A stretch of 64,000 nucleotides of DNA from Pyrus communis (Eukaryota; Streptophyta; Magnoliopsida; Rosales; Rosaceae): positions 11,394,001 through 11,458,000 of the forward strand of contig NC_084813.1 in NCBI RefSeq assembly GCF_963583255.1, read 5' to 3'. The position numbers and the translations under genes are program-made. Within the stretch, counting starts at the first letter, position 1, and each line of letters opens with the position of its first letter. Below, one piece after another: positions 16,189 to 41,654 of this stretch. The notes below the pieces were generated by a model, which was given only the letters and a program-made list of their open reading frames with translations, made no database searches and had not been told where the DNA came from.

Positions 16189-16352
16189 AAACTAGTACCT
16201 ACACACAAGAGTAAACAAGATAAGTAATCAACTTAATAGACTTGGCATAAAAAAAACAAAACACATACACACGGTGCAAAAAAAAATTAAAACAAAACAG
16301 AAACTAAACAATTTAAACAAGACTCAAGATAAGGGATTAGCAAATTTGCCAA

Positions 16353-16370
16353 TCCCCGGCAACGACGCCA
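16353..16370 (-). other. tRNA-Asp primer-binding site, copy 1
   Basis: The minus strand reads TGGCGTCGTTGCCGGGGA, complementary to the 3' end of plant tRNA-Asp(GTC) with one mismatch (T for C at the sixth base). It starts 5 bases inside the 5' LTR. H and D carry the exact site; copy 2 shares the mismatch. Confidence 0.88.
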
Positions 16371-16375
16371 AAATT

Positions 16376-18828
16376 TGATGCGATAATTATACGCACACAA
16401 ACTAAACCCTATTTGTGACAATTGTAGTAATGATGTAAGTAGGGATCGTTCTAACCGGGGATTAACTAGGGATGCTAAACACTTGACTCAAATAAATAAA
16501 ACTAACTTTTAAAACACTAAGACAAACTAAAAGACTCAAAACAAGTTCAAAAGACTCCAAATACTTAAAAACATAAAATAAGACAAATCAAATGATTAAG
16601 ACTTAACAAAATAAGGGGGGGGGGGGGGAGTTTGATTTGACGAAAATTGAAATAACAAAACAAGTTAATAAACTAAGCAAATTGTAAAACGAATAAACGT
16701 AAATATGAATGTGATGAAAATATGGATGATGGAATAGCCAAGGGGTTCTTCTCCATACATGTTACACTTGCATACAAGATTGATTCTCAGTTGGTCTTTC
16801 GATAAATTATGAAACTCAATGCTCCAAGTTAATTAGGTCCGCTTAAATTACTTTCAGATTTCCCTAGATTCATTGGATTGAATGGAATACGCATTACAAC
16901 CAAATTATTCTTAATCAAAGTCCCTAACTATGGAATACGCATGATAGAGACATTCAACCAAGATCATTAAGTTCAATGAAAATTATAAGTGTTGACGAGG
17001 CATTCGTTACTATGGAATACGCATGAAACTTATGCCAAGAATTCGTTTAACGCGATTGTTTATAAGCAACCTCCACTACTTGTGAATATAAGTTCGTAAC
17101 TATTAGGTGAAACTCACTTATATTCTAGCGTCATATTCATGCATGAAAATTAAGCGTACACTCTCAATAAACATACATAAATAAGTTATCAATCAAACGG
17201 TTAAACGAATTGAATCCACAACTTATGAAATTCCAACGAAAGTAATCAATTCATATTGCAAGTATAAACATGTATTTTGAATCACCCCCTAGCTAAAGGG
17301 GGGTTTAGTTCCTCATAACTTTGAAATCAAAGAAACACCTAAACATTCCAACAACTCAAACTTGAATTGTATGAACGTTTAGGTACTCTTCTCTTCCATT
17401 ACAAACCAAAGAAAATTGAATTTAAACATTGAAATCAAAGAAACACCTAAACATTCCAACAACTCAAACTTGAATTGTATGAACGTTTAGGCACTCTTCT
17501 CTTCCTCGTTGTTGTAGCACAAGGTCTAAGGTGAGCTTTGGGGATTATGTGAAGTGTTTTGGAGGGATGGAAAATGGTTGGATAGTGGCTGCAATGGAGG
17601 AGAAAAACTGCACAGAAATGGAAGGATATGCACGGCTATGGATATGTGTTTGTGTTGTGAATGGAATGAATTTTTGAAAATGGAAGAGTGTATGAAATGA
17701 GATGTGTTTAGGTAATGGGAATGCAAGGGTATTTATAGGAGGAATGGAGGTGTATATGGCTGTTTGTTTAAGCATTTATATGGCTGGAATGTGGTGGAAA
17801 AACAGCTAGGAAAGCATGGTGGAAAACTGGAAATGGGAGTGAATGCCACGGCAAAGGTTGGAGAAAAGGTGTGTGAATGGGGTGATTGAATGATTAAAGT
17901 GCATGTGGGTTAGAAATGTGGTTGAAATGATGAAGAATAATCTGGAAATGCAAGGTGGAAAGCTGGAAGTGTGAGTGAAGGTCACGGCAAGGGTGTTTTC
18001 TTGATGGTTTTGGGGTTGTGATGCATGTGAATGCATGTGAATGATAGCTAGGGTGTGTGATGATGAGTGTATGTGGAATAAAGAATGAATGGTGGCTGAA
18101 TTGAATGAGATGAAGAGTGAATAAAGAAATGCATGTAGGGTTAGCTAGGTTGGCTTTGTTTGGGTGCATGTGTTGGCTCAATTATATTGTTGGGAAGGCA
18201 TGTGGATTAGGTGGAATGTAGGTAATGCATGAGTGACAACTAGATATGTTGATGAATGCATGTGTTTGGTGGGAACAAAGGGGGAAGCACGGCTTTGATG
18301 GTGTTTTGTAAAGGGGAAGATGGTGTGTGTAATTGCATGTGTGTGAATGTGGGTTAAAGTGATGCATGGCTAGGAAATGTGAGTGAATGATGTGCATGTG
18401 TGTGAATGCATGTGGAATAAAGAAGAATATGGAAGTGAATAAATCATAATATGGCTAGTTTAAAGGGCTAGGGTTTAAGTACATAGAATGGGCCTAAAAT
18501 AGGTTGGTTTGCATGGCATAGAATGTTTGATTTGGGCTAGAGGTTTTCCATGGCTCAAAGGATTTGTTTGATTAGGCTAGGCCCTTTGTTTTATGTCCCC
18601 AAAGAGCATACAAGGCTTCAATTTCGTCCATCCTCTTTGCACCATGATTAAGCTATCCAATCCATGCCCAAAAATGCTCCAAATAGCCTCAAAATGCACT
18701 TTCTTGCTCCCTAAGCCCTTAGAACCTGAAAACACACAAAAGAAGCATAAAGGACTAAAATAACTAGAGAAACATAACGTAAATGCACGAGAACAAGCCA
18801 TTTAAGTCGCATGAATATGCTCCTATCA
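16376..18828 (-). repeat. 5' LTR of copy 1
   Basis: Length 2453 bp, with two units of the 108-bp repeat, a 14-G run, and a TATA-like TATAAATA at 17730-17737 (minus strand). Apart from the homopolymer length it has the same indels as the 3' LTR of copy 2 (2451 bp). It shares with that LTR, and not with its own partner at 4364-6791, a GATGATGAG form near 18060, CACGGCAAGG near 17985 and the A in AAGAAGAATATGG near 18427. Confidence 0.95.
17730..17737 (-). promoter_or_regulatory. TATA-like box in the 5' LTR of copy 1
   Basis: TATAAATA on the minus strand lies in the middle of the LTR, upstream of the 108-bp repeats. The same box is at 5611-5618 and 45794-45801, but it is deleted from the 5' LTR of copy 2. 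It is the best candidate for the element's own promoter. Confidence 0.5.
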
Positions 18829-19782
18829 GAACTTTGCACAACAAGGAAGAGGATTTCAAACAAGGAAGTGGTGCATGTAAGTGAAAATGTCTCTGCAATG
18901 TTACAAAGGAAATTGCCTCCTAAATGCAAAGATCCAGGTAGTTTCACTATCCCTTGTGTAATTGGTAATTGGTAATACAAAGTTTGAACATGCTATGTTA
19001 GACCTAGGTGCATCCATTAATGTCATGCTTACTCTGTTTATGCATCTATGAACTTAGGAGAGCTTAAAAATGATGGAGTTATTATTCAATTAGCCGATCG
19101 TTCTAATGCATATCCAAAAGGAGTTTTGGAAGATGTTTTAGTGCAGGTTGATCATTTAATCTTTCCGGTTGATTTTTATGTGCTTGAAATTGAAGATTCG
19201 GCTCATTCTCCACCATTGCCACTCCTACTTGGAAGACCATTCATGAAAACAGCCCAAACCAAGATTGATGTGGCCAAGGGAGCATTAACAATGGAGTTTG
19301 GTGGTGATATAATTAAATTCAATGTTTTTTAATCTATTAAGAATCCTAATGAAGTTCCCCCTTGTTTTGCCATTGATGTGGCCAAGGGAGCATTAACAAT
19401 GGAGTTTGGTGGTGATATAATTAAATTCAATGTTTTTTCCATTGATGTGAATAAAGATGTAGGGCAAGAACAATCCACACCTATCAAGAATGATGCATCC
19501 AGAACCACCATCGAAGAGGGAATTGGAGTGGCTGCCCTAAAAAAGCCCAATCTAGCCGAAAGTAGCCATAATGCAATTGTTGACAGTGCTGCCACTTTTG
19601 AGCCTCCATCACAATATTTTTGTAAGTCTCCAATCCTAATTCCAATTCCCATTTCAACTAATAGGTTGTTACCATCTTTGATGCAGGTTCCCAATCAAAA
19701 TCAAGGTGGTGAGAAAGTTCACAGTGACTTTAGGAAGCTCAACACCATAATCAGGGAGGATCATTATCTCCTTCTATTCATT
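18829..19782 (+). pseudogene. Protease-region fragment of element P
   Basis: The sequence begins inside the Gag-protease linker (ELCTTRKRISNKEV) and runs through the protease to a conserved STNRLLPSLMQVP stretch. It is broken by a small tandem insertion near 18961-18976 (GGTAATTGGTAAT), a short deletion after GTCATGC near 19027, and an imperfect 108-bp duplication (19267 and 19375) that introduces a stop at 19330. The copy 1 LTR end abuts at 18828. GAACT at 18829-18833 complements four of the five bases after copy 2 (AGTTT, 47154-47158), so this is the continuation of the P gag at 47154-48992. Confidence 0.82.
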
Positions 19783-19860
19783 AAGCCTTATTATGAGAAC
19801 TTTGAAGGGCAGGTTGTGGAGGATGTACCCCTCCATGCCGTGGGCTCTAATGGAGCTTAA
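19705..19860 (+). pseudogene. Fused remnants of P reverse transcriptase start and Pol C-terminus
   Basis: A few residues of the RT entry (DFRKLNTIIREDH) are followed within about 20 bases by the extreme C-terminus of Pol (KPYYENFEGQVVEDVPLHAV) and a TAA at 19858-19860. By comparison with copy 2, roughly 4 kb covering RT, RNase H and integrase is missing at about 19780. P could not have supplied its own enzymes after this loss. The deleted form may have been a non-autonomous element or a later internal deletion; the sequence does not decide. Confidence 0.82.
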
Positions 19861-21003
19861 AAGAGAGGTATTATCCGGCTGGAAGACGTTAAAGCAAGCG
19901 CTTCTTGGGAGACAACCCATGCGTTCAAATAAAGAAAACCTAGGAATCTCCAACAATCCACAACCAGATTTGCATTCCTAAACCCTACTCTTTATTGCTC
20001 TTACTTTGCCATGATAGTTATGTTTGTTAGTTTGTGTTGTTTGATTGTTTGAGTGTGAGTCTTTGTTTGAAACATTGAGGACAATGTTTGGTTTAAGTGT
20101 GGGGGGTAAACAAGCTGTTTTTGCACAATTTTCGTGGGATTTATTCACCTATCAATTCTAATGTTGTTTCTCACTATTTTTAAGTGTTTTTAAGTGTGTT
20201 CTGAAGTGTTTTTATGTATCTTAAACAGAAAATATGAAAATTTGAAAAAAATTCGAAAAACAGTTTTGAAAAACCCAAAAAGAGTTGTTTTTGTGTGTTT
20301 GTTTGGGTCTTAGGGTACCTTCCAACACAATGATGAGGATTTGGTTTTTAATTGCATGACTGTTAAAGAAAGTTACAAACATGGATGGAAGTTTGATTTG
20401 CTCTTTAATTTATGCTTAGTTGTAGTTGTTGTTTACGAATTCACATGTAATCACAAAAAAAAAAAATCAATTTTTGTAACATGTTTGAAGGAAGGAACTC
20501 AAACTAATGCTACAATCCTGAGAGACTTGAGCCTAAACTTTGTTTGGAGAGTATTAATCTGTGATTTCTTGTTTTCCAAAGTCATTGCATGATCTTATCA
20601 TTTCTTTGCTTGGTTGCTACTTAGAATGTGTTTTCATCATTATAGTTCCAAATACTAGAACTCATGCCCGTTTCATTCAAAGCATGATATTGAGTGCATA
20701 ACATACAATAAGATGAAGTTGTTTAGTAAACTAGAGCCAAAAAGCCTAACCCTTTGCATATGTACTGTAGGTTTAACCCTTTTGAGCCTTATTTAGCCTA
20801 TTTTCTTTGTTAGCCACATTATCCTTACCTAGCCTAGAATAGGACTATCCATACCTTTGTTCTTAAAGAATAGTGAAGCATGACTTAAAGGGAATTCCTT
20901 TTGATCAACGCTTTGCAGAAAAACAAGTGTGGGGGAAGGGTTTTTATTGAAAAAAAGAAGAAAAACGTGAAAAAAAAAAAAGAAAAAAAAAGAAAAAAAA
21001 AAG
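19861..21003 (+). other. 3' non-coding region of P, truncated
   Basis: Aligns with the Q 3' region (51999-53230) and the copy 2 3' region: the GGCAACCCATG-like segment, the hairpin at 20070-20089, a GTGTGGGGGG tract at about 20098, and the CAACACAATGATGAGG block near 20322. A second GTGTGGGGG tract is at about 20927. There is no antisense-gene block here. It ends in an A-rich stretch at about 20950-21003, after which an opposite-strand pol fragment starts, so P's end and 3' LTR are lost. Confidence 0.75.
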
Positions 21004-24000
21004 AAACTTATCTAAAGCAAAAACAACAGCAAGAAGTTCTTTTTCCGTTGTGGAGTAGTTCAATTGAGCATCATTTAAGGTCTGGGATGCATAATAGATG
21101 ACATGTGGCTGCTTGTTCTTCCTTTGGCCTAAACAGCTCCTAATACATAATCTGAGGCATCACACATAAGCTCAAAAGGAAGACTCCAATCTAGTGGAAC
21201 AATGATAGGGGCCGAAGTGAGCATCTCCTTGAGGTGTTTGAAGGCCTTCTCACATGCTTCATCGAACTTGAAAGGTGCATCATTTTGAAGAAGTCGGCAT
21301 AGGGGTTGAGAAATCTTTGAAAAATCCTTGATGAATCACCTATAGAATCCTGCATGTCCAAGAAAAGAACGAACCTCTCTCACCGAAGTAGGAGAGGGTA
21401 AGTAGCCTACAAGATCTATTTTCGATTTATCAACCTCAATACCCTTGGCCGAAACAATGTAACCTAAAACTATGCCTTGTTTTACCATGAAATGACATTT
21501 TTCCTGATTTAAAACAAGGTTAGTTTCAATGCATCATTTCAAGATTAAAGTGAGATTATGTAAACAATCATCAAATGAATAACCAAAAACACTAAAATCA
21601 TCCATGAAAACTTCAATAATCTTCTCCACAAAATCTGAAAAGATACTTACCATGCATCTTTGAAAGGTGGCTGGTGCATTACATAAACCAAATGGACAAG
21701 TAAAAGTAATCTTTTCTTGATCATCTGGAGCTATAACAATTTGATTATATCCCGAATAACCATCAAGAAAACAATAAAAAGAATGACCAGCTAACTTTTC
21801 AAGCATTTGATCAATGAATGGCAAAGGGAAGTGATATTTCCTTGTGGTGACGTTGAGCTTCCTATAATCAATGTAAACTTTCCAACCTGTTTGGATACGG
21901 GTTGGCACAAGCTCATTCTCAGCATTCTTCACCACTGTATCTCCCGATTTCTTTGGAACAACTTGAACTGGTGAAACCCAATGACTATCCGAGATAGGAT
22001 AAATCACTCCACAATCGAGAAGCTTGATAATTTCCTTCTTCACAACTTCCATCATTGGAGGATTGAGTCAGCGTTAAGCCTCTCGAGTTGGTTTAGCTCC
22101 CTCCTCTAGAAGTATGCGATGCATGCAAGTTATAGGGCTAATACCCCTAATGTCGGCCAAGGTTCATCATATGGCTGTTTTGTGCTATTTCAACACCCGA
22201 ATCAATTTCTCCTCCTCCATTGTCATGAGGGATGAAGAAACAATGATGGGCAACGTCTCTTTTTCTCCCAAATAGACATACTTCAAATGATATGGCAATG
22301 GTTTAAGCTCAAGAATGGGTGCCTGAATCACCGAAGGTAACAACTTGTTAGTAGAAACAGGAATTGGAATTGGGATTGAAGGCTTACCAAGGTGTTGTGG
22401 CAATGACTCAAGTGCAACAACCATCTCGGCCTCTTCTTCACATGTAGGCACGGCAAGTACTTCCTCATGCATGCCGTGAGTGTGGTCATTTCCTGCCCTT
22501 TTGTTTTTTAGTCTCATTCCTTTTGTAATGGTCGTTTCAAGGGGATCCCTCTCCAAAGAGTCAAGATAATTATGCGCCAATGAATCGAATACATCAATAG
22601 AAAAACAAGAATGATCATCTTTAGGATATTTTATAGTTTCAGAAGACTGAAATCAATAACTTCCACCATCAAATTCCATTGTTAACGTCCCTTTGAACAC
22701 ATCGATCTTGGTGCGGGTTGTTTTCATGAAAGGTCTCCCAAGGAGGATCGGCAATGGGGTAGAATAGGCTGAATCTTCCATGTCAAGCACGTAAAAGTCC
22801 GTTGGAAAGATTAAATTGTTAACCTGCACCAAAACATCTTCCAAAACTCCATTCGGATATGCATTAGAATGATCGGCCAATTGAATAATCACACCATCTT
22901 TTTTAAGCTCTCCTAAGTTCATAGATGCATAAATTGAGTAAGGCATGACATTAATTGAAGCTCCTAAGTCTAACATAGCATGTTCAAACTTAGTATTGCC
23001 AATAACACAAGGAATTGTAAAACTACCCAGATCTTTGCATTTAGGTGGTAGTTTCCTTTGTAACACCACAGAAACATTCTCACTTACCTGGACCATTTCC
23101 TTGTTCAAAATGCTCTTCCTTGTTGTGCAAAGCTCATTCAAGAATTTGGCATACTTAGGAACCTGCTTAATTGCATCAAGGAGCGAGATATTGACTTGAA
23201 CTTTCCTAAAGGTTTCCAAAATGTCTTTCTCATTCTCTTCTTTCTTTGATTGCTTAAACCTGCTAGGAAAGAGAACAATTAGTGGAATAGAACTAGAAAA
23301 ATTCAAATTTGGACTTACCTTGGTAGTTTGGGACGGTTTTGGGGCCTCAGGGGGCTGCGGCAAGGATTGGTCTTCCCTTGCCGTGGCCCTTACTTCCTGT
23401 TCTTCTTCTTGCAGCAGCTTTTCCTCCTTGTTAAGGCCTTGTTTGGATGGTTTTGGGTGATTTCCAAGCTCCTTGCCACTTCTCAACATAATGGCCTTGG
23501 CGGTTTCAAAGCCTCCCTTTGGATTCACAACGGTTGAACTAGGAAGTTTGCCTTGTTCTCAAAACTGCCCAAGGAATTCTGAAATTTGCCCCATTTGCTT
23601 CTCCAATTCATCCACCTTTTTGGCTTGATTTTGCATTGCTTGGGTTTGATTTTGGACTCCCTGCGCCAAAGTGGTTAATAATTGAACAATTTGATCATTA
23701 TCCATGGACGAACCTGTTTTTGGTTGGGTAGATTGTGGTTAGTTTTGAATTGATGCATATGGCCTTGGAAACATCCTAGGGGGTGGTGGACAAAATCCTC
23801 CTTGTTGTTGAGTTTGTTGAGGCTCCATCCACTTCATATTTGGATGATCTCTCCATCCCAGATTGTAAATGTTGTCGTATGGGTCATGCCTAGGTTGATT
23901 TTGGCCTTGATAACCCACGACATTGGTAGATTCCCATCCTCCATTATCAATCAATTGAGGGCATTGCTCATAGTGGTGTGCTTGCATAATGCACACATAC

Positions 24001-24151
24001 ACTAGCTTTTTGCACTTTGGATCCATCAACAACCTGTGACACAAAAATAGTGAGATTAGCTAATTGAGATTAAATTTCAGAAATTGCACTTACCTCATTC
24101 ACTTGTTGTTGCCGTGGGGGGTCTCTTTGTCCAACTCCCTCATATTGTTTT
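21004..24151 (-). pseudogene. Element R: Gag C-terminus, protease, RT and RNase H start
   Basis: Read from 24151 down, this contains the Gag zinc-knuckle region (degenerate, near 23985-24005), the Gag linker ([20 protein letters not shown] at about 23470-23528), protease ([11 protein letters not shown] near 22950), the LLPSVIQAP linker, RT (FMDDFSVFG near 21590) and the first part of RNase H (truncated at 21004). Several stops and frameshifts break it, for example near 23562, 22650, 22185 and 21535. In RT a short deletion at about 21695 removes the [10 protein letters not shown] segment. The 5' part of gag continues at 26250-27045 across solo LTR U. R is probably the same element as Q, on the other side of P. 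Confidence 0.85.
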
Positions 24152-26249
24152 TCATAGGAGCATATTTAGGCGACTTAGTTAGCTTTTTTTCTTACTTTTA
24201 TGTTGTTAGTTCATAGTTATTTTAGTATTTTAAGCTATTTTCATGTGTTTATAGGTTCATTTGGCTAAGGTAGCAAGAATGTGCATTTTGGAGCCTTTTG
24301 GAGCAAAATTGGACTTGGAATGGATAACATATGCTTGGAGCAAAAGGAATGGACGAAATTGAAGTCCTAAAGATGTTAGGATTCCTAATCGAAGAAGGAT
24401 TCCTAATCAAAGAAGGATTCCTACTTGAAGTAGGAAAGTTAGGCCAAGGTTTCCTATTTTGGTTTGACCTTTCCTAATCCTAAAAGACCTTAAGTTCCAG
24501 CAACATTGAAGACTCTTATACATTTTAGGACACAAATAAGCCTTCCTTGCACCCTTACTGTCATTGCCAAGCATTGCCTGTACTTGCCCTTTCCTTGCCA
24601 TGCAAGGGGAATGGTTATTCCCTATTTTGTGTCACAATATCACATTCCTCTTTCACCATATTCAAGGTTGCACCTTACATACCTATTCTATCCTAAATCC
24701 TTGCCTTATTTCAGCCTTAAAACACATTCCCTTTCTTACTCTTTATTGGCCGCAAGTTTCCTTCCCTTTTCCCTTTGATTTCTGACTTTATGTTTCTTTT
24801 TCCTTGTGGATTTGGGGTCTAATCCTTTCCTAAACTATGTAATAAAATTTAGGATTCTTTCCTTCAAATAAATAACCAATGTCGCACCCTTAGAGAACCC
24901 TAATCACGCATTCATACAACCTGCCATCCTTCATTCTGACCATCAACCTTTGCCGCAGCTTTCAACCTTTCTTCCACCATTCTCATACTTCCATACCTTC
25001 ACCCAAATACCCATACATCATCCCTAACCTTTGCCGCACCCCCCTACCAACTTAAATCCATTCATAACCCAGAAATCCATCCAAAATCACCCAAGAACTC
25101 TTGTGCCGCAGCTTTGCAAGGAAGAAGAGGAGAAGAAGAAGCCTTGGACGTTTTGCATTCAAGTTGGAGTGTTGGAACATATTTAGGTGTAATCTATCTT
25201 TTGTTTTCAATGTTTAATTCAAGTTTTCTTTGTTTTGTTGTGAACATGAGAGGCTAAACTCGTTTTAGCTAGGGGAGACTTTGAAACCATGATTATGTTT
25301 ATGATATGAATTGATTAATTCCAGTTGTCATTTCATAAATTGTGAATGCAATTTACTTAACCGTTTGATGGATAACTTATTCTTGTATGTTGATTAAGGA
25401 GGCCTACTTAATTTGCATGCTTGAATTTGGTGCTAGAATATAAGGGAGTTTCGCATAATCGTTACAAACTTATATTCACAAGTAGTTAAGGTTGTTTTCA
25501 CAATCATGTTAAGTAAATTCCTAGCATGAGTATCATGATGTCATAGTTACCAGTGTTTTGTCAATACTTATGATTTTCATAGAACGTAATGATCTTGATT
25601 GTATCTCTATTATGATGTCATGTAGGGAACTTTTGAAGAATGCTTTGGGTTGTCTTATGATGTCATCCAATCCAATAACTAAAGGAGAATCTGAGGGTTA
25701 ATTAGTGATGTCACGGTTAATCTGGGGTGTTGAGGTTCATGGTTTATCGAAAAAGCAACTGGAAATCAATTTGTGTTTGAATGTATCATGTGTGGAAAAG
25801 AATTCTCTAGCTAGTTAATCATCCATAGTTTTTCTCAAATTCGTCCAAATCCTATTTAAGTCTCTTAGTTACTTGTCTTTACCTTAATTTCATCAAAAAC
25901 CCAATCCCCTTTACTTACTTGTGTCAAATATGTCCTTTTGAGTGTTTTTGAGTATTTTGAGTCAAAATCAATTCTATTTTCGTCCAAATTAAGTCCTAGA
26001 GTCTAGTTTGAGTCTATTTGATTGTTTTGTGTTGTTTTGAGTCTTTTGAGTTTGTTTTGAGTCATATAAGTCTAGTTAAGAGTCTTTGAGTCTTTTTAAG
26101 TGTTTTTAAGTCTAGTTTTGTATCTTTGAGTCAGTTTTTATTAGATTAGCAATCCCTCCTAATCCTTGACCTAGAACGATCCCTACTTACAACTTTACTA
26201 CAATTATCAATAAGAGGGTTTAATTTGAGTGTTATCTTTTATCACATCA
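24152..26249 (+). mobile_element. Solo LTR U inserted in R gag
   Basis: An LTR of about 2098 bp starts TCATAGGAGCATATTTAGG (terminal TG mutated to TC) and ends ATCACATCA. The flanks are GTTTT (24147-24151) and GTTGT (26250-26254), a five-base duplication with one mismatch. R gag reads on directly from one side to the other. No internal region or primer site is attached, so it is a solo LTR left by LTR-LTR recombination. It contains the inverted repeat TTCCTACTTGAAGTAGGAA at 24418-24436. Confidence 0.9.
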
Positions 26250-27045
26250 GTTGTGCGTTCAAGGCTCGATTTGCAATTAAGATCTTGGCAGCCACCGGTG
26301 TTTTGTCAACCAAAGCATCTCCCACTGAAGCATCTAGCATTTGTCTCTCAATTGGAAGGAGTCCCTCGTAGAAATATTGAATTAAAAGCTCTTCCTTCAT
26401 TTGATGTTAAGGGCATGATGCAACTAGAGTCTTGAAACGTTCATAATACGCTGGAAAGGATTCTCCTTGGCTTTGTTGAATGCCACTAATTCTCTTCCTC
26501 AAGAGAATGACTCTCGAAGTTGGGAAAAACTTCTCTAAGAATGCTCTCTTCATGCTTTCCCAATAAGTGACGGTTCCAGGTGCCAATTCATAGAGCCAAT
26601 CTTTAGCCTTTTCCAAAAGAGAGAATGGTAAGGCTTTCATCTTCAAAATGTTCCCATCGACATTGATGGGTGTCATGCTTGAACATACCACTTCAAACTC
26701 CTTAAGATGCTTGTTTGGATCTTCCATGGAGAGCCCATGGTATTTGGGAATGTGATGCAACAAGCTAGACTTCAATTTGAACTCATCGGTCTTGCCTTGA
26801 GCTACCCTAGGATATTGAATGCATAAGGGCACGACATTGTCTAATCCCGAGGCTGAAAGTTCCTTGATTGTTCGATTATCCGCAACCATGGCTTGTTCTT
26901 CTTTTTCCACTTCTTCTTCTTCAGATTCGGCCTCAGAACTAGGTGGACTAGGTTCTGGATGCCTCCTCTTTCTTCTCAACGTTCGTTCAAAGTCGTCGTC
27001 AAACTCCAATATATGCTCACGAACAGGTTGAGAACTACGAGTCAT
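26250..27045 (-). pseudogene. Element R gag, N-terminal part
   Basis: The Gag start codon is at 27045 ([15 protein letters not shown]). An open stretch covers the acidic N-terminus (SEAESEEEEVEKEE), the conserved [11 protein letters not shown] segment and the Gag core ([29 protein letters not shown]) to SCP. A stop at about 26407 (CAT-to-TAA type change) breaks it before the segment that ends at U. The overlap with the cut end at 24151 confirms one original gag. It assembles the core particle in intact relatives. Confidence 0.88.
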
Positions 27046-27165
27046 AAACACTAACCTATAACAAAGCAAACAAACAAGATAAAATCAGAAAACAAAATAA
27101 AAACACACGGACAGAAAAGAAAAGACACACGGCAATAACTAGGGGAAGATTAGCAATTTTGGTAA

Positions 27166-27183
27166 TCCCCGGCAGCGGCACCA
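27166..27183 (-). other. tRNA-Asp primer-binding site of R (degenerate)
   Basis: The minus strand reads TGGTGCCGCTGCCGGGGA, two mismatches from the tRNA-Asp complement. It lies six bases inside the R 5' LTR edge. Confidence 0.82.
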
Positions 27184-27188
27184 AAATT

Positions 27189-28708
27189 TGATGTGAAAAT
27201 TAACTTGACACACAAATTAAACCCTAATGTTGACAATTATGGTATATATGTAAGTAGGGATCGTTCTAGACCGGGGATTAACTAGGGATGCTAATCAACA
27301 CAAATAAGACTTAAAAACACTAAACTAGACTCTATAGACTCAAAACTGACTTAAAACACTCAAAACAACAACAAACAATCAATTCTAGACCTAACAAGTG
27401 ATTTTGACGAAAATAAGACTTAACTTGACTCAAGAGACTAAAAGAAAACAGATTTTGACTCAAATAACAAGACTTAATGAAAGGGGAATTGTTTTTGACG
27501 AATTTAAAACTTAAAACAGAAACTTTGCATAAAACACTTAATAAGAACGAATTTGGTGAATTAAAAAGGGTGAAAGGCTAGTTAGAGGGTCCTTCTCCAC
27601 ACATGACATATGCATATAAACCAATTTCCAGTTATTATTCCTTTAGACTATGAATGACAATGCCCCAAATTAACCGTGAAAAGCACAAATTAACTTTCAG
27701 ATTTTCCTTAACTTGTTGAATTGGACAGGATACGCATCACAACCAAATTATCCTTATCAAGTTCCCTAACTATGAAAAGCATGATAGAAAGACATATCAA
27801 AGGTCATTAAGTTCTTTGAAAGCCATAAGCATTGACAAGGCATTCGTAACTATGAAAAGCATGATACTCATACCAAGGATTTACTTAACACAATCATGAC
27901 TAGTGACTTCCACTACTTGTGAATATAAGTTCATAACGATTAGGTGAAACCCCCTTATACTGTAGCATCAAATTCATGCATGCAAATTAAGTGTTGACCC
28001 TCAATCAACATACATAAACAAGTTTTAATAACTCAGATAAGAAAATCACATTCAAGACTCAAGAAACAATAATTGGATGTAATCAATTCATATAAAACAT
28101 ATAATCATGGCTTCAAATTCACCTCCAACTATAAAGAAATTAATTCCACATGTTCATCATAATTGAAAACCAAATTAACATAAACATTGAACTAAAACTA
28201 GGATAGAAAGAACCCAGAAACACTCCACACTCCAATGGCAGTTTGCGGCACTCCCTTGGATGGCAGATTGCACGGTACTCTTCTTCTCCTTCCTTCCTTG
28301 CTTGCAGCACTATGGTGATTTAGGTGTATTTAGTGTGAATTATGGTGTTTGATGGTTGAATGTATGAATGAATGAATGAGTGAATGAATGGTTGGTTTTC
28401 TGTGACATAACATGTATATATATGCTAGGGTTTCACGGCAAAGCCTTGCAGAACAAGGATAGGGCACGGCATAAGCTGAATAAGAATAGAATTGTGCAAC
28501 CAAAACCCAAGTGGAATGGGTTAAAGCAACCAGAAACCAAGGGGAATTAGGATAGAAAGGTGTGGCAGACATTAAAGCTTCTAGAAGGGATGTTTTAACA
28601 CAAAATTTTGACTCCAAATCAACAACACATTCAGCAAGGGTGTAGGAAAGGAATTACAACTCCTAATCCACCAAGGAATGGCATATATGCAGCACACAAT
28701 GGATAAAA
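27189..28708 (-). mobile_element. 5' LTR of R, cut by element H
   Basis: Reverse-complemented, this is the downstream part of an Athila-type LTR ending in TTTTCACATCA. It includes a low-complexity GAATGAATGA run near 28360-28390. It stops at 28708, where the LTR of H begins on the other strand. The remaining part of this LTR should lie beyond the other end of H, outside the window in the ancestral order. Confidence 0.83.
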
Positions 28709-30683
28709 TGATAGGAGCATATTTATGCTACTTAGTTATGTTGTTTCCTTGCATTTAGTGAGTTAATTACTATTTATTTCAGTCTTTTAAGTTATTTTCG
28801 TATGTTTTTAGGTCCTAATGACAAAAGGAGCAAGAAAGGGCATTTTTGAGCTAAAATGAGCATTTTTAGGCATGGATTGGATAGCTTAACCATGGAGTAA
28901 AGAGGATGGACGAAATTGAAGTCAAGAAGGGCTAGGAAAGGCTACAAATCTGGTGGAAGAAGTCCAAATGCAAAGAAGATAAGGAAGAAGCAAGAAATAA
29001 GGAACCTTATCCAACCTTATCTTATCCTATCCTAACAAACCTTATCCTTTCCTAACTCTAACATTACCCTATCTTAGCCTATCTAAATTAGGTTGTGCCT
29101 TAAATCTAGCTAATTAGAAGGGATTAGATGCATATTTAAACACTTAGAACAATTTCTAGAAGCTTATCCATTTGTTTTGCCGCATAAACACCATTCCATA
29201 TAGGTTTAGGAATTGCAATCCTCCTTCTACACTTATATCATATGTCCTTGGCCCTTTGGGTTTAGGAATCTGCCCTAAACCATTCCTTCTAGAAACCTTA
29301 TCTCATCCCTACAAAGATGCCGCACCTAACCTTCTAGAATTCCCTAAATCCTAGCCGTGCATTACCTAGTCCATTCCCCATTTGGTTTCTGCCCTGAATT
29401 AACCCTTTTCAATGGGATTGTGCAATCCTTTTCCTTCACTAAGTGTGCCTAATTAGCCTATATAAACAGCCCTATGCCGCACCATTCATTCATCCACTCA
29501 CTTATTCATTCATTCACACTTTCATCCATCAAACACCACAATCCATTCTACACCACCCTAGTGCAGCAAGCAAGGAAGCAAGGAGAGGAGGACTTGTGCA
29601 ATCTGCCATCCAAGGGAGTGCCGTGCATGCCATTGGAGTGTGGAGCGTTTTTCTTGGTTCTTTCTATCCTTAGTCTTAGTTCAATGTTTAAATTTAATTA
29701 TCTTTGTTTTGCGAACATGAGGAACTAACTTCTTTTTAGTTAGAGGAGAATTTGAAGCCATGATTTTATGTTTTATATGAATTGATTACGTCCGGTTATT
29801 ATTTCTTAAGGCATGAATGTGATTTGCTTATCTAAGTTATTAAAACTGGTTTATGTATGTGGGTTGGGGTTTAACACTTAATTTTCATGCATAAACTTGA
29901 TGCTAGAGTATAGGGGGGTTTCACGTAATTGTTATTCGCTTATATTCACAAGTAGTGGAGGTTGCTAGTCACAATCGCGTTAAGTAAATCCTTGGTATGA
30001 GTCTCATGCGTTTCATAGTGATGAATGCCTTGTCAATGCTTATAGTTTTCACAAAACTTAATGACTTTTGATATGTATCTTTGTTATGCATCTCATATAA
30101 AGAACTTGAAAAAGATAATTTGGTTGTAATGTGTTTTCATTCAATCCAATGAAATAAGGAAAACTTGAGGGTTAGTTGTGCAATGCAACTAATTTGGAGC
30201 GTTGTCATTCATGGTCTAAAGGAGTAAAAACTGGACATTGGTTCGTATGCATATATCATGTGTGGAGAAGGACCCTCTAACAAGCCTTCCACCCATTTAT
30301 TTTACTTAAATTCGTTTTTCAAAAGTGTTTCCTATAAAGTTTTTGTTTTGAGTCTAAAATTCGTCAAAAACAATCCCCATTTTATTTAGTCTTCATATTT
30401 GAGTCAAAACTTGTTTTCCTTGAGTCTTTTGAGTCAAGTCAAGTCCTATTTTCGTCCAAAACCCTTATTGAGTCTAAAATTGAGTCTTTTTGAGTATTGG
30501 TCGCTGTTTTAAGTGTCTAAAGTTAGTTTTGAGTCCATAGAGTCTAGTTTAGTGTTTTTGAGTCTTATTTACATAGATTAGCATCCCTTGTTAATCCCCG
30601 GTCTAGAACGATCCCTACTTACATATCTACTACAATTGTCACAAATAGGGTTTAATTTGTGTGTCAAGTTAATTTTCACATCA
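28709..30683 (+). mobile_element. 5' LTR of element H
   Basis: Length 1975 bp, starting TGATAGGAGCATATTTATGC and ending TTTCACATCA. It contains TATATAAACAG near 29460 (TATA-like). T's LTR remnant at 1596-3231 is its closest relative here. The flank before it is TAAAA (28704-28708); the other flank is not in the window. Confidence 0.92.
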
Positions 30684-30688
30684 AATTT

Positions 30689-30706
30689 TGGCGCCGTTGC
30701 CGGGGA
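30689..30706 (+). other. tRNA-Asp primer-binding site of H
   Basis: TGGCGCCGTTGCCGGGGA matches the complement of the tRNA-Asp(GTC) 3' end at all 18 bases, five bases inside the LTR end at 30683. An intact reference for the family. Confidence 0.92.
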
Positions 30707-30836
30707 TTAGCAAACTTGCTAATCCCTTTTGTTTGTGTAGTGTCTTTTTAGTGTCTTTGTGTTTTCTTTTAAGTGTGCCGTGCCTTTTAAATAGATTGCT
30801 GATTTGGTTGTGTTCTTTATTTTTAGGTACTAGTTT

Positions 30837-31839
30837 ATGACTCGTCGTTCTCAACCTATTCGTGCAAACATATTGGATTTTGACGACGATTTTAACGAAC
30901 TTTGAGAAGAAAGAGGAAGCAACCAGAACCTTATCCACCTAGTTCAAGTTCAGATTCCGAATCTGAATTTGAAGAAGAAGAAAGCATGGCGGCGGACAAT
31001 CGAACAATCAAAGAACTTTCGACCTCGGGACTAGACAATGTCGTACCTTTGTGCATTCAATATCCTATGGCCGCCCAAGGCAAGACCGATGAGTTCGAAT
31101 TGAAGTCTAGCTTGTTGCATCACATTCCCAAATACCATGGGTTGTCCATGGAAGATCCAAACAAGCATCTTAAGGAGTTTGAAGTGGTATTTTCGAGTAT
31201 GACCCCCATCAATGTCGATGGGAACATTTTGAAGATGAAGGCCTTTCCATTCTCTCTTCTAGAAAAGGCTAAAGATTGGTTATATGAATTGGCACCCGGA
31301 ACCGTCACTTCTTGGGAAAGCATGAAGCGGGCATTCTTAGAGAAATTCTTCCCAACTTCAAGAGTGATTCTTTTGAGGAAGAAAATAAGTGGCATTCAAC
31401 AAAACCATGGGGAGTCTTTTCCAGCATATTATGAACGTTTCAAGACTCTAGTTGCATCATGCCCTCAACATCAAATGAAGGAAGAACTTTTAATTCAATA
31501 TTTCTACGAGGGCCTTCTTCCAATAGAGAGACAAATGCTAGATGCCTCGGCGGGAAGTGCTTTGGTTGACAAAACGCCCGTGGCTGCCAAGATTTTAATT
31601 GTAAATAGAGCGTTGAATGCACAACAATATGAAGGTGTTGGTCAAAGAGACACCCCACGGCAGCAAGTGAATGAGGTAAGTTCCCAATCTGACATTCAAT
31701 CTCAATTAGCTAATCTTACTTCTATTGTGTCTCAGATGGCCGAAGGAATGAGGATACAAGGACCAAGTGTATGTGGCGTATGTTCTATCCAAGGACATCA
31801 TTCAGACAAGTGCCCTCAATTGATTGAGAATGGGGGATG
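30837..31839 (+). pseudogene. Element H gag, cut by LTR S
   Basis: The start codon at 30837 opens MTRRSQPIRANILDF. A small indel near 30900 ends that frame at 30903, and the Gag reading continues in another frame from 30902: acidic segment, [12 protein letters not shown], core with [17 protein letters not shown] and KAKDWLYELAPGTV, and the zinc knuckle CGVCSIQGHHSDKC near 31770-31811. Apart from that one frameshift the coding is open to 31839, where LTR S begins. The next bases of gag are at 3232-3262 on the other strand. The open remainder suggests H was recent when S inserted. Confidence 0.88.
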
Positions 31840-32938
31840 TGATAGGAGCATATTCATGTGACTTAATTAGCTTGTTCTCGTGCATTTATGTTGTGTTTAC
31901 TTAGCTATTTTAGTGTTTAAGGCTACTTTTGTGTATTTTCAGATTATAAGGCCAAAGTGTGCAAGAAGATGCAAATTGGAGTCTTTTGGAGCGAAAGAGG
32001 AATGAATGAGTTGAAGATTTGAAGAAACGACGAAATCCTACTCCAACGATGAATTCTTACCAAAACGAGGAATCCTACTCAAACAAGGTTTCCTACTTGA
32101 AGTAGGAAAGTTAACCCTAAGTTTCCCGTTTTGGTAACCTTTCCTAATCTAAACGTCCGTATTTTCTAGCCACTTTGTAGACCTTGTAGGTACTTTAGGA
32201 CACAAAACGAAGGCCCTAGGCTCCTTATCCATCCTTGCCGTGTCCTTTTATTTTCTTCCCTTCCCTTGCCGTGCAAGGGAGGGCAATTTTGTCCTAGGGT
32301 TGCACTTAAAACACATGCTTTTAAACCCTAGCCGCACCTTTATATTTATGTTTTAATTTCCTATTTTCGTAAGCCTTTGATTTAATTTTAAATAAGCTAG
32401 GGTTAGTTTTCGGAAATCATACATTTTCCTAACCCTAGCCGACACTACACACATCCACCCTAGATTCTAATCAGCCGTGGCCTCCCATTTTATTATTTGA
32501 CCCTAATTTCAACCTAGCAGCCGCAAAATCCCATTTCTTTTGTCTCATATCATTCAGCCATTCTTTTCCAACATCATTTTTTTCTTCTCTGCCGTGGCCC
32601 CCCCCCCATTTACCATTAACCATAAAAAACCAAAAAAGAAATCAAGGCCGGAGCCACCATTTATATTCTATCATTAGCCGCAAGAATCTACCATTCACCC
32701 TAATTCTAATCCTGCCGCAGCCACCATATATTATTATTTCTTCTCTGCCGTGCAGGTGGCACACCAATTCCAGCCTTCCCCCATCTTCACGCAGCCACCA
32801 ACACCCATTCTCCCATCAGCCGTGCATCCACCCCTCCATTCCAGCCATATTCCACACCTTCACACACCATCTACCAACCTTGCCGCACCACCCAACCTCC
32901 CTAAATCCATCCCTAACCCAGAAAACTATCCAGCAATT
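31840..32938 (+). mobile_element. 5' half of solo LTR S
   Basis: Starts TGATAGGAGCATATTCATGTG and is colinear with the start of the E LTR (62022 on), including TTCCTACTTGAAGTAGGAA at 32090-32108. It ends at 32938 in the LTR middle, abutting the copy 2 5' LTR with CAATT (32934-32938). The second half is at 3263-4363 in opposite orientation. GGATG at 31835-31839 is its left target duplication. Confidence 0.88.
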
Positions 32939-35064
32939 TGATAGGAGCATATTCATGCGACTTAAATGGCTTGTTCCCGTGCATTTACGTTATGTTTCTC
33001 TAGTTATTTTAGTCCTTTATGCTTCTTTTGTGTGTTTTCAGGTTCTAAGGGCTTAGGGAGCAAGAAAGTGCATTTTGAGGCTATTTGGAGCATTTTTGGG
33101 CATGGATTGGATAGCTTAATCATGGTGCAAAGAGGATGGACGAAATTGAAGCCTTGTATGCTCTTTGGGGACATAAAACAAAGGGCCTAGCCCAATCAAA
33201 CAAATCCTTTGAGCCATGGAAAACCTCTAGCCCAAATCAAACATTCTATGCCATGCAAACCAACCTATTTTAGGCCCATTCTATGTACTTAAACCCTAGC
33301 CCTTTAAACTAGCCATATTATGATTTATTCACTTCCATACTCTTCTTTATTCCACATGCATTCACACACATGCACATCATTCACTCACATTTCCTAGCCA
33401 TGCATCACTTTAACCCACATTCACACACATGCAATTACACACACCATCTTCCCCTTTACAAAACACCATCAAAGCCGTGCTTCCCCCTTTGTTCCCACCA
33501 AACACATGCATTCATCAACATATCTAGTTGTCACTCATGCATTACCTACATTCCACCTAATCCACATGCCTTCCCAACAATATAATTGAGCCATCACATG
33601 CACCCAAACAAAGCCAACCTAGCTAACCCTACATCTCATTTCATACACTCTTCCATTTTCAGAAATTCATTCCATTCACAACACAAACACATATCCATAG
33701 CCGTGCATATCCTTCCATTTCTGTGCAGTTTTTCTCCTCCATTGCAGCCACTATCCAACCACTTTCCATCCCTCCAAAACACTTCACATAATCCCCAAAG
33801 CTCACCTTAGACCTTGTGCTACAACAACGAGGAAGAGAAGAGTGCCTAAACGTTCATACAATTCAAGTTTGAGTTGTTGGAATGTTTAGGTGTTTCTTTG
33901 ATTTCAATGTTTAAATTCAATTTTCTTTGTTTTGTAATGGAAGAGAAGAGTGCCTAAACGTTCATACAATTCAAGTTTGAGTTGTTGGAATGTTTAGGTG
34001 TTTCTTTGATTTCAATGTTTAAATTCAATTTTCTTTGTTTTGTAATGGAAGAGAAGAGTGCCTAAACGTTCATACAATTCAAGTTTGAGTTGTTGGAATG
34101 TTTAGGTGTTTCTTTGATTTCAAAGTTATGAGGAACTAAACCCCCCTTTAGCTAGGGGGTGATTCAAAATACATGTTTATACTTGCAATATGAATTGATT
34201 ACTTTCGTTGGAATTTCATAAGTTGTGGATTCAATTCGTTTAACCGTTTGATTGATAACTTATTTATGTATGTTTATTGAGAGTGTACGCTTAATTTTCA
34301 TGCATGAATATGACGCTAGAATATAAGTGAGTTTCACCTAATAGTTACGAACTTATATTCACAAGTAGTGGAGGTTGCTTATAAACAATCGCGTTAAACG
34401 AATTCTTGGCATAAGTTTCATGCGTATTCCATAGTAACGAATGCCTCGTCAACACTTATAATTTTCATTGAACTTAATGATCTTGGTTGAATGTCTCTAT
34501 CATGCGTATTCCATAGTTAGGGACTTTGATTAAGAATAATTTGGTTGTAATGCGTATTCCATTCAATCCAATGAATCTAGGGAAATCTGAAAGTAATTTA
34601 AGCGGACCTAATTAACTTGGAGCATTGAGTTTCATAATTTATCGAAAGACCAACTGAGAATCAATCTTGTATGCAAGTGTAACATGTGTGGAGAAGAACC
34701 CCTTGGCTATTCCATCATCCATATTTTCATCACATTCATATTTACGTTTATTCGTTTTACAATTTGCTTAGTTTATTAACTTGTTTTGTTATTTCAATTT
34801 TCGTCAAATCAAACTCCCCCCCCCCTTATTTTGTTAAGTCTTAATCATTTGATTTGTCTTATTTTATGTTTTTAAGTATTTGGAGTCTTTTGAACTTGTT
34901 TTGAGTCTTTTAGTTTGTCTTAGTGTTTTAAAAGTTAGTTTTATTTATTTGAGTCAAGTGTTTAGCATCCCTAGTTAATCCCCGGTTAGAACGATCCCTA
35001 CTTACATCATTACTACAATTGTCACAAATAGGGTTTAGTTTGTGTGCGTATAATTATCGCATCA
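32939..35064 (+). repeat. 5' LTR of copy 2 with promoter deletion
   Basis: Length 2126 bp. Relative to the 3' LTR of copy 2 it lacks 431 bp (equivalent of about 45399-45829) with ACAT at both edges of the deletion, has one more 108-bp unit (three in all), and has a C run two bases shorter. These three changes account exactly for the length difference (2451 - 431 + 108 - 2). The deletion removes the TATA-like box found at 45794-45801. Confidence 0.95.
33833..34156 (+). repeat. 108-bp LTR minisatellite, three units
   Basis: Units start AAGAGAAGAGTGCC at 33833, 33941 and 34049, an exact 108-bp period. The 3' LTR of copy 2 has two (46028, 46136), the 5' LTR of copy 1 has two, and the 3' LTR of copy 1 has one. 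It lies just downstream of the predicted promoter, so it would fall in the transcribed leader. Confidence 0.93.
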
Positions 35065-35069
35065 AATTT

Positions 35070-35087
35070 TGGCGTCGTTGCCGGGGA
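35070..35087 (+). other. tRNA-Asp primer-binding site, copy 2
   Basis: TGGCGTCGTTGCCGGGGA, one mismatch from the exact tRNA-Asp complement, five bases after the LTR. The same mismatch in copy 1 shows it is fixed in this lineage. Confidence 0.9.
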
Positions 35088-35251
35088 TTGGCAAATTTGC
35101 TAATCCCTTATCTTGAGTCTTGTTTAAATTGTTTAGTTTCTGTTTTGTTTTAATTTTTTTTTGCACCGTGTGTATGTGTTTTGTTTTTTTTATGCCAAGT
35201 CTATTAAGTTGATTACTTATCTTGTTTACTCTTGTGTGTAGGTACTAGTTT
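35088..35251 (+). other. Leader between primer site and gag, copy 2
   Basis: A T-rich, short untranslated leader ends TTAGGTACTAGTTT-like just before the gag ATG, a segment also seen ahead of H, D and R gag. No feature of its own recognised. Confidence 0.6.
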
Positions 35252-38200
35252 ATGACCCGTAGCTCACAACCTGTTCGTGAGCATATCTCCGACTTTGACG
35301 GTGATTTCGAGAGGACTTTGAGAAGGAAAAAGAAATCACAAGCATCTAATCCTCCTAGTCCCGAACCTGAATTTAAAGAAGAAGTACCAACCATGGCAGT
35401 GGACAATCGGACCATCAAGGAGCTCTCTGCCTCAGGTATGGGCAATGCCGCTCCTTTATGCATACAATACCCTATGGCAGCTGAAGGTAAGACAGAAGAA
35501 TTTGAACTTAAGTCTAGTTTATTACATCATATTCCTAAATTCCATGGGTTGTCCATGGAAGATCCTAACAAACATCTTAAGGAATTTGAGGTAGTTTGCT
35601 CATGTATGACACCCATCAACGTTGATGGGAGTATTTTGAAGATGAAGGCCTTTCCATTCTCACTTATGGACAAGGCCAAAGATTGGTTGTTTGAATTGTC
35701 TCCTGGAACTGTCAATTCTTGGGAAAGTATGAAACGTGCATTCTTAGAGAAATTCTTTCCCACTGCAAAGATCATTCTCTTGAGGAAACGAATTAGTGGC
35801 ATTCAACAAAATCAAGGTGAGTCGTTTCCATCTTATTATGAACGTTTTAAATCACTTGTTGCTTCATGTCCACAGCACCAAATGAAGGAGGAGCTGCTCA
35901 TTCAATATTTCTACGAGGGACTCCTTCCCATGGAACGTCAAATGCTAGATGCTTCGGCGGGTGGTGCATTAGTGGACAAGACTCTAATGGATGCCAAAGC
36001 TCTAATTGCCAACCGAGCACACAACGCTCAACAATATGAAGGTGTTGGACAAAGAGAGGGGCCACGACAACAAAGTGTGAATGAGGTAAGTACAATTTCT
36101 GATATTCAGTCACAATTGGCTAATCTTACTTCTCTCGTGTCTCAGGTTGTCAAGGGGTCAAAACCACAAGAAAACCAAGTGTGTGGCGTGTGTTCAATGC
36201 AAGGGCATCCATCGGAGACGTGCCCTCAGTTAATAGAGAATGGAGGTTGGGAATCTGCCAATGCCATGGGTTTTGGGAACCAAAATCAACCACGCCATGA
36301 TCCATACTCTAATACCTACAATCCGGGGTGGAGGGACCATCCAAATTTCAAATGGCGGGATCCTCAACAACCCCAACAACAAGGAGGATTTAGGCAGCAA
36401 CCACCGGGCTTTTATACAAAGCCATTCATCCCCAATCAAAACCAAGTGCAATCTGCCCCAACAACCTCAGGTATGTCTTTGGATAATGATCAAGTTGTTA
36501 AGTTACTTACTACTTTAACGCAGGAAGTACAAACTCAAAATAAGGAGAGACAAATCCAAGACAAACGGGTGGATAATTTGGAGAAGCAAATGGGTCAAAT
36601 TGCCGAGTTTATGGGGCAAATTAGAGAACAAGGCACATTGCCTAGTTCAACCGTTATGAACCCGAAGGGAGGATTTGAAACCGCTAAGGCCATCATGTTG
36701 AGAAGTGGTAAAAAGGTTGGAACGGACTCAAGTACATCCAAATCAAGTCAAGACGAGGAGGACAAGTTGCTGCAAGAAGAAGCACGGGGAGCAAAGCCCA
36801 CGGCCAAGGATGACCAAACCTTGCCAAATTCATCTAGTCCTCCGAAACCGTTCCAAACCACCAAGGTAAGTCCCAATTCAACTTTTTCTAGTTCTATTCC
36901 ACTAAATGTGCCCTTTCCTGGCAGGTTTAGGCAATCAAAGAAGGAAGAAGCTGAGAAGGACATTCTAGAGACCTTTCGGAAAGTTCAAGTCAATATCCCG
37001 CTCCTTGATGCGATTAAGCAAGTCCCGAGGTATGCTAAGTTTTTAAAAGAACTTTGTACAACAAGGAGAAGGATTTCAAACAAAGAGGTGGTTCAAGTAA
37101 GTGAAAATGTCTCTGCTGTGTTACAAAGGAAATTACCCCCTAAATGCAAAGATCCGGGTAGTTTTACAATTCCGTGCGTTATGGGTAACACTAAGTTTGA
37201 ACAATGCATGTTAGACTTAGGGGCTTCGATTAATGTTATGCCATACTCTATTTATGCATCTATGAACTTAGGTGAGCTTAAAAATGATGGTGTGATAATT
37301 CAATTAGCCGATCGTTCTAATGCATATCCAAAGGGTGTTTTGGAAGATGTTTTGGTACAGGTTGGTAACTTGATTTTTCCAGCGGATTTCTACGTGCTTG
37401 ACATGGAGGATTCACCCCATTCCACCCCATTGCCGATTCTATTAGGGAGGCCCTTCATGAAAACAGCCCGCACCAAGATAGATGTGTTTAGAGGAACTTT
37501 AACGATGGAATTTGATGGGGAAGTCATTGATTTCAATCTTTCTGAAAGTATTAAATTTCCTAAGGACGATCATTCTTGCTTTTCTATTGATATAATTGAT
37601 GATTTGGCGCAGGATTTTCTCGATTGTTTGGAGAGGGATACACTTGAAACAACAATTTCACAAGGAATTGGCCAAAAATCTGGTTTTGCCGTGCCAAGAA
37701 GTGTGGAGGAGGCCGAGATAGTGGCTGCCCTTGAGTCACTACCTCAACACCATGGTAAGCCTTCTAACCCAATTTCAATTTCAGTTTCCACTAATAAGTT
37801 GTTACCCTCAGTGATTCAGGCACCCGTACTTGAGCTTAAACCGTTGCCCGATCATTTAAAGTACGTCTATCTGGGAGACAACGAGACATTGCCCGTCATT
37901 GTCTCCTCATCACTCACCGCCATAGAGGAGGAGAAGTTGATCCGAGTGTTGAAAGAGCACAAGACGGCCATTGGGTGGACTTTGGCCGATATTAGGGGAA
38001 TTAGCCCGACTACGTGCATGCATCGCATACTTCTAGAGGAGGGGGCTAAACCAACTCGAGAGGCTCAGCGCCGTCTCAACCCTCCAATGATGGAAGTTGT
38101 GAAAAAGGAGATTATCAAACTTCTTGATTGTGGAGTGATTTATCCGATCTCTGATAGTCGTTGGGTGTCACCGGTGCAATGTGTTCCAAAGAAGTCCGGA

Positions 38201-40732: not shown

Positions 40733-40829
40733 ACGGAGGTACCGTCCGGCTGCAAGACGTAAAAGAAAGCGCTACTTGGGAGGCAACCCATGCATTCAAC
40801 AAAGGAAGACTTAGAAAGCACTCCAATTC
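40733..40829 (+). other. Spacer after pol, copy 2
   Basis: A short segment conserved with P and Q after the pol stop, containing GCTACTTGGGAGGCAACCCATG. It precedes the acquired block. The conserved wording in all three suggests an old, functional 3' segment; function unknown. Confidence 0.6.
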
Positions 40830-40952
40830 CAGATTCCTAAAACTCTTCTCTTTGTTGCTTTTTCGTTTCTGCCATGTTAGGTTGTTTAGTTGTTATTTTG
40901 TTTGTTTGTTAATTGTGTGAGAATATGATTGGAACATTGAGAAATTGTTTGA

Positions 40953-40958
40953 TTTATT
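40953..40958 (-). terminator. AATAAA signal after the antisense gene, copy 2
   Basis: TTTATT on the plus strand (AATAAA on the antisense strand) lies about 37 bases after the antisense stop codon, at the same spacing as in copy 1. Confidence 0.5.
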
Positions 40959-40994
40959 GATAGGCACTGCTAAACAAATAATAGGCTGTGACTT

Positions 40995-41654
40995 TCACAA
41001 AGGTCGTTTGCTTGAAGCCCCACTACGTGGCACCACTCTAGAGGCGGGAGGCATCTGAGCAGGAGGCATTGGAGCGGGAGACGTTGAAAATGGATCATTC
41101 GAGGCCTCAACACTTGGTGGAACACTTGATGAGCCAGGAAAAATGTGCCTCTGGAAGAAAGCCGCAAGCCTTTGACGGTCACTTTGACGGTCACTTTGCA
41201 TTCGACCATTGGATTCTTGCAGCTCATCTAGCTTCCTCTTCATGCCCGACGAATAGTTATTTGCAAGCACATGCAAACTTCTATTCTCGTACTTAAGCAG
41301 TTTGATCTCTTGCTTAAGACTTTCCACCTCCGCCATCAATGATTCCACCTGACGGGAGCGGGCAAGCAAGCGTTGGCCCATGTTGGACACAGAGCTCGCA
41401 CACTGAACACTAAGTGCGAGGGACTCTTGAACGGCCAACTCATCGGACCGTCCTGACAGCAGCCTACTATCTTTTGGAGTGAGGAGGTTCCTAGCTACTA
41501 TTGTAGCTGTTGTGGCGTCCTGCATCACGGAGTCTTCACCTGTAAGAGGACCGTTAGAAGATAAGAAAGAAGGGCGCCATACGTTACCTTGACGCGGCGC
41601 GCTCGCATCACTGCTGAGACTCAATTCTAAGCTAAGGTTCGATGAGTTTGCCAT
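40995..41654 (-). CDS. Antisense coiled-coil protein with N-terminal LxLxL motif (unrecognised family), intact
   Basis: The frame is 219 codons, opposite to gag-pol. Residues 7-13 read LSLELSL, an LxLxL pattern of the EAR type that in plant transcription factors recruits TOPLESS co-repressors. Residues about 97-148 have leucines and charged residues in heptad-like order (SLMAEVESLKQEIKLLK within it), a likely coiled coil. A short SDRQ repeat follows (154-161), then a proline- and serine-rich tail ending SSKRPL. No signal peptide or membrane segment. A promoter-like region and an AATAAA flank it. It is shared with copy 1, where it is truncated at residue 156. I cannot name a family; a DNA- or chromatin-associated regulator is a guess from the motif only. 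It could also be a relic of a captured host gene. Confidence 0.72.
   Translation of the reverse strand: MANSSNLSLELSLSSDASAPRQGNVWRPSFLSSNGPLTGEDSVMQDATTATIVARNLLTPKDSRLLSGRSDELAVQESLALSVQCASSVSNMGQRLLARSRQVESLMAEVESLKQEIKLLKYENRSLHVLANNYSSGMKRKLDELQESNGRMQSDRQSDRQRLAAFFQRHIFPGSSSVPPSVEASNDPFSTSPAPMPPAQMPPASRVVPRSGASSKRPL

Follow-up and report, generated by a model that had tools for sequence, protein, structure and literature searches.

Analysis of a 64,000-bp window on chromosome 11 (C11) of Pyrus communis (positions 11394001 to 11458000), the annotated part of which consists mostly of nested Ty3/gypsy-type elements, revealed two full-length long terminal repeat (LTR) retrotransposon copies of opposite orientation and, between them, a segment of 14,110 bp (18829 to 32938) that is inverted relative to the host elements flanking it; the target-site duplications (TSDs) and host joins match only when the flanks are exchanged. 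Three TSDs and three interrupted hosts fit together only with this segment reversed, and the reversal likely came about by homologous crossing-over between the opposite-facing copies. The inversion had been put forward in a preliminary description of this DNA; it accounts for the three TSDs, for both interrupted gag frames, and for a split LTR (LTR S), none of which is explained by the order as written.

Copy 1, delimited by LTR alignment and its open reading frame, lies on the minus strand at 4364 to 18828 (3' LTR, 4364 to 6791; gag-pol, 10708 to 16188; 5' LTR, 16376 to 18828). Copy 2, for which domain matches were used in addition, lies on the plus strand at 32939 to 47153 (5' LTR, 32939 to 35064; gag-pol, 35252 to 40732; 3' LTR, 44703 to 47153). 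The copies are about 14.4 kb each, with LTRs of 2.1 to 2.5 kb, and are 99.08% alike over 11.5 kb; each carries a gag-pol frame of 1,826 residues. The Pfam domains in the frame of copy 2 follow the gypsy order (gag, reverse transcriptase, RNase H, integrase), and the LTRs start with TG and end with CA; by these sequence features, the copies are Ty3/gypsy LTR retrotransposons, and they may be Athila-like. As they now stand, both would be chimeras of two original elements, referred to below as elements 1 and 2. The 3' part of copy 2 also contains a 219-residue open frame antisense to gag-pol (40995 to 41654) with no Pfam match. Past about 506 bp, the LTR body had high-identity matches, among the 40 best of 5167 candidates that were scored, in no LTR outside the four described here. 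The two copies, separated by 14 kb, may therefore form a private pair within a rare subfamily.

In the order as written, neither copy is flanked by a matching TSD. With the partners exchanged, AATTG/AATTG for element 1 and CATCC/CATCC for LTR S are exact, and AGTTC/AGTTT for element 2 agrees at four of five positions. The outer AATTG of element 1, read at 4359 to 4363 on the plus strand, has its partner on the minus strand at 32934 to 32938 (CAATT as written), which today adjoins copy 2. The AGTTC of element 2 is found on the minus strand at 18829 to 18833 (GAACT as written), today beside copy 1, and its outer partner, AGTTT, lies on the plus strand at 47154 to 47158; the TSD of LTR S is CATCC at 3258 to 3262 and GGATG at 31835 to 31839. 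All six 5-mers given in the preliminary description were verified at these positions, and so was its claim that flipping 18829 to 32938 restores three nested TSDs, two of them exact and one at four of five positions; the host joins were in addition found to be continuous elsewhere in the genome. Given the window's own 5-mer frequencies, and with the reading frames not yet counted, the three TSD matches have a joint probability of about 7e-8.

As a control, the TSDs of 12 LTR pairs from the same broader group were read by eye next to the terminal TG and CA. Three pairs were left out (L035/L036, in which the repeat extends past the LTR; L037/L038, with a truncated LTR end; and L045/L046, with no alignment), and the other nine had both ends intact. 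Two adjacent full-length copies lacking TSDs are unusual here, because eight of these nine pairs carry exact 5-bp TSDs and the ninth matches at four of five positions. Two control elements, located on C11 near 11.80 and 11.94 Mb, themselves form an inverted pair about 150 kb apart; they are about 99% like the present copies in gag-pol and have exact TSDs.

The hosts rejoin under the same reversal. The gag of host element H (30902 to 31839, plus strand; assigned from a Retrotrans_gag match and its join with 3233 to 3257) is interrupted by LTR S and continues beyond it for 30 bp on the minus strand (3233 to 3262), as indicated by the frame and the DNA join. The read-through of this gag across LTR S that had been proposed was reproduced in frame: the frame up to 31839, followed by the complement strand from 3257 downward, gives a string of 16 residues that occurs letter for letter in another P. 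communis gag (P0080) and differs by one residue from the gag of copy 2. LTR S consists today of one part at 3263 to 4363 on the minus strand, supported by the TSD, the alignment of relatives, and the join, and of another at 31840 to 32938 on the plus strand, inside the inverted segment; as stated in the preliminary description, the two make one LTR of 2195 bp (1101 + 1099 - 5). In four of nine LTR S relatives (L010, L011, L013, and L014), the right half starts at the end of the left half with the expected overlap; for the remaining five, the beginning of the right half gave no alignment, and one of them, L012, aligned over only a short piece, in the opposite orientation.

The third host, element P, is interrupted by element 2. 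Its gag part was located at 47154 to 48992 on the minus strand by tblastn with the gag-pol of the copies, and its continuation, the protease region, at 18829 to 19692 on the plus strand, inside the inverted segment, by tblastn and the join. The predicted union of the two parts was confirmed: the complement strand down to 47159, followed by 18829 onward, reads LKELCTTR with GAACT. With the TSD from the AGTTT side, the join reads LKKLCTTR, with K where the gag-pol frame of copy 2 has E. AGTTT is probably an altered TSD copy of element 2, one C-to-T step away; it is taken as the changed copy because the frame of copy 2 itself reads LKELCTTR and because P-like hosts at two other loci (L049 and L050) carry GAACT.

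Elsewhere in the genome, the sequences of the three empty-site joins (76, 100, and 87 nt) run uninterrupted, apart from small gaps or the loss of a few terminal bases in some matches. In whole-genome searches, all 40 scored matches crossed the H join at 92 to 99% identity (best 40 of 1145 candidates), and all 40 crossed the P join at 93 to 98% (best 40 of 998); the S join was likewise crossed by 40 of 40 scored matches (best 40 of 681) at 85 to 100%, two of them at 100% over 100 bases. Host gag also continues past these insertion sites, as predicted, at separate insertions in L049, L050, and L062. Two loci with an LTR beside P-type protease DNA (L002 and L003) first looked like counter-evidence, as if the present flanks were ancestral. 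They proved to be separate insertions: the starts of their LTRs are 78% and 84% like the present LTR, with TSDs of their own at distances of 3 and 9 bp. At both loci, gag and protease lie on opposite sides of the insertion, which is what the uninverted order predicts.

In the LKELCTTR region of the P-type gag-pol, three LTRs have inserted within 9 bp of one another, each antisense to the host (at 18829, in L049 at 7501 to 9585, and in L050 at 376 to 9222), with the TSDs GAACT, CTTTG/CTTTC, and ACTAA. Plant LTR elements are reported to nest nonrandomly (PMC6911290); the clustering seen here may be a matter of ascertainment, since the search query spanned that junction. In L062, on C10, a further LTR lies 13 bp beyond the point of the S insertion, in an H-like gag.

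The pattern of differences between the copies bears on how the segment was turned. The LTRs of the copies differ by about 0.4%; across the four LTRs, 17 single-nucleotide polymorphisms (SNPs) are private to one LTR (0.18% per LTR), and a single derived SNP, at LTR site 402, is shared; the divergence is almost star-like. Site 402 is T in the LTRs at 16376 to 18828 and 44703 to 47153 and C in the other two, as it is in all six relative LTRs scored (from at least 4 elements). This pairing, given by a single SNP, is what an internal crossover would leave. A 108-bp tandem unit (33831 to 34127) occurs 1, 2, 3, and 2 times in the LTRs at 4364 to 6791, 16376 to 18828, 32939 to 35064, and 44703 to 47153, respectively, and favors neither LTR pairing.

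The internal region shows 35 difference events between the copies: 4 SNPs in the first 5.8 kb and then 31 events (24 single-base changes and 7 insertions or deletions), with a longest identical run of 2,698 bp. Both LTR comparisons and the internal region taken together hold 46 SNPs in 13,939 aligned bases, and a stretch centered on gag-pol (10367 to 16755, minus strand, in copy 1, with its partner at 34689 to 41069, plus strand, in copy 2) holds 4 SNPs in 6,381 aligned bases, whereas the private LTR SNPs predict about 23. None of 200,000 random placements of the 46 SNPs gave a span as long with so few, and only 2 of 200,000 did so with four SNPs of an A/T run dropped. Purifying selection is unsupported as the cause of this shortage, because all four SNPs in the stretch are nonsynonymous. 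A general shortage of SNPs in gag-pol relative to the 3' part was also considered; it is present in the inverted control pair on C11 but is milder there, with 33 SNPs in the gag-pol piece and 31 in the 3' piece versus 4 and 20 here (Fisher p = 0.0035; the comparison took in 4.8 kb from gag-pol and 3.0 kb from the 3' part, a portion of each element). A conversion tract around the crossover would explain the SNP-poor stretch.

In the order of events that we propose, LTR S would have inserted into H and element 1 into LTR S, with element 2, oppositely oriented, entering the gag of P. The copies would have paired at a later time, and strand exchange in or near gag-pol, resolved as a crossover, would have turned 18829 to 32938, made both copies chimeric, and left 10367 to 16755 and 34689 to 41069 nearly identical. 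We infer that the turn and the homogenization were a single event and that the crossover lay within the SNP-poor stretch. If a neutral rate of 1.3e-8 per site per year is assumed, the insertions would date, by the private LTR SNPs, to near 0.14 million years ago; the SNP-poor stretch, with about 17% of the private-LTR divergence, would place the exchange near 0.02 to 0.03 million years ago. A doubtful extension of this mechanism is a natural flip-flop, in which the segment would turn repeatedly and each pairing would rehomogenize gag-pol; both orientations would then occur among pear haplotypes and perhaps among the cells of one tree.

Several observations weigh against inversion by crossing-over. 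The lengths of a C run in the LTRs (15 and 14 in copy 1 and 10 and 12 in copy 2, in the order given above for the tandem unit) group the LTRs by present copy, although such runs change fast. The control pair, too, is less diverged in gag-pol than in the 3' part, to a smaller degree. Conversion without crossing-over could yield an SNP-poor stretch with no inversion, so that the stretch and the flip may have arisen separately; in addition, converted regions in plant LTRs are reported to be mostly 100 to 1000 bp long (Jedlicka et al. 2020; PMC7251063), shorter than the present stretch. Finally, the order rests on the assembled sequence of one haplotype, and the main rival is a mis-assembly.

Such an assembly or haplotype-switch error, in which the true order would be uninverted and the assembler would have crossed between the copies inside the repeats, is unlikely. 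The mean read length of 11.3 kb, obtained by dividing the totals reported for the drPyrComm1.1 P. communis assembly, is less than the 14.4 kb of a copy; the deposited assembly is not fully phased; and the SNP-poor stretch would be the easiest place for a switch. However, the same account (PMC11803386) describes an assembly made with hifiasm from about 51-fold HiFi data, hand-curated, with a quality value (QV) of 64.2, and the window is without any N. The preliminary description spoke of near-identical repeats through which an assembler might mis-join, and this holds on average, but the 17 private LTR SNPs, the one shared SNP, and the 35 internal events are enough for accurate reads to separate the copies. 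A mis-join is unlikely because the longest identical internal run, far below the mean read length, should let reads tell the copies apart, and a simple mis-join would not strip SNPs from 6.4 kb. The choice between crossing-over and mis-assembly, initially left open, is thus tipped toward crossing-over by the SNP-poor stretch, the HiFi assembly, and identical internal runs of at most 2,698 bases. No second version of the locus was found in the assembly for the H/S junction among the best 40 of 4001 candidates scored.

A much less probable alternative is the joint integration of two cDNAs from a single burst whose ends were swapped between the target sites; the segment would then have been inverted from the outset, with no need of a later crossover. 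The confinement of the LTR body to this window, within the candidates scored, and the almost star-like divergence of the four LTRs, as if inserted nearly together, fit such a joint integration. However, it leaves the SNP-poor stretch unexplained and predicts variants shared between the two LTRs of one present copy, contrary to site 402; we know of no precedent for it among LTR retrotransposons. That the TSDs were lost or never present and that the matches across the segment are coincidental can be practically dismissed: the matches are only 5 bp long and one of the three is imperfect, which would favor coincidence, but their joint probability is minute and the joins of H, S, and P are continuous in relatives elsewhere in the genome.

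Other elements were noted nearby and elsewhere. A further element has a 289-bp tandem duplication in its reverse transcriptase/RNase H region (679 to 1258). A 480-residue gag with a CCHC zinc knuckle (56586 to 58028) may belong to another lineage, because Pfam matched no zinc knuckle in the gag of either copy 2 or H. On C1, there is another inverted pair (L057 to L060), for which the alignments did not reach the outer ends.

Recombination between inverted LTR elements can flip the intervening DNA and yet leave two normal-looking elements, so that it is easily missed. Because this locus combines three nested TSDs with three host joins and a likely conversion tract, separate dates can be given for the insertions and the exchange. 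Where the two LTRs of a full-length element derive from different insertions, their divergence cannot serve as a clock. The annotated parts of the window are retroelement DNA; no search for host genes was made, and no effect on the plant is suggested.

Recombination and gene conversion between LTR elements are known in plants. As far as the portions of two reports available to us go (PMC7251063 and PMC2672092), the present case shares with them a homology-driven exchange between copies, with or without crossing-over; those reports deal with conversion within LTRs, solo LTR formation, and segmental duplication, whereas here two full-length copies stay and the DNA between them is turned. Recombination that preserves element structure escapes the REANNOTATE tool, according to the excerpted account of it (PMC2672092). 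A closer parallel is retrotransposon recombination-mediated inversion (RRMI), described from a comparison of human with chimpanzee, in which the ancestral order was deduced from TSDs (Lee et al. 2008, PMC2603318). There, recombination between inverted retrotransposon copies flips the intervening DNA and leaves chimeric elements with mismatched TSDs, as would be the case here, and matching TSDs reveal the ancestral order; at the present locus, inverted homologous retroelements lie at the ends of the segment and the TSDs match only with partners exchanged. The RRMI cases involve L1 and Alu elements in primates and a comparison of two genomes, in contrast to a 14.4-kb LTR element in a single plant genome, in which the ancestral order would be read from host continuity. 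Our literature search turned up no report of the present inversion, although full texts were not combed for one. Compared with the RRMI cases, nested hosts and an SNP-poor tract provide extra evidence here, and the present case is most likely a plant example of this known type of inversion, with an unusually complete record.

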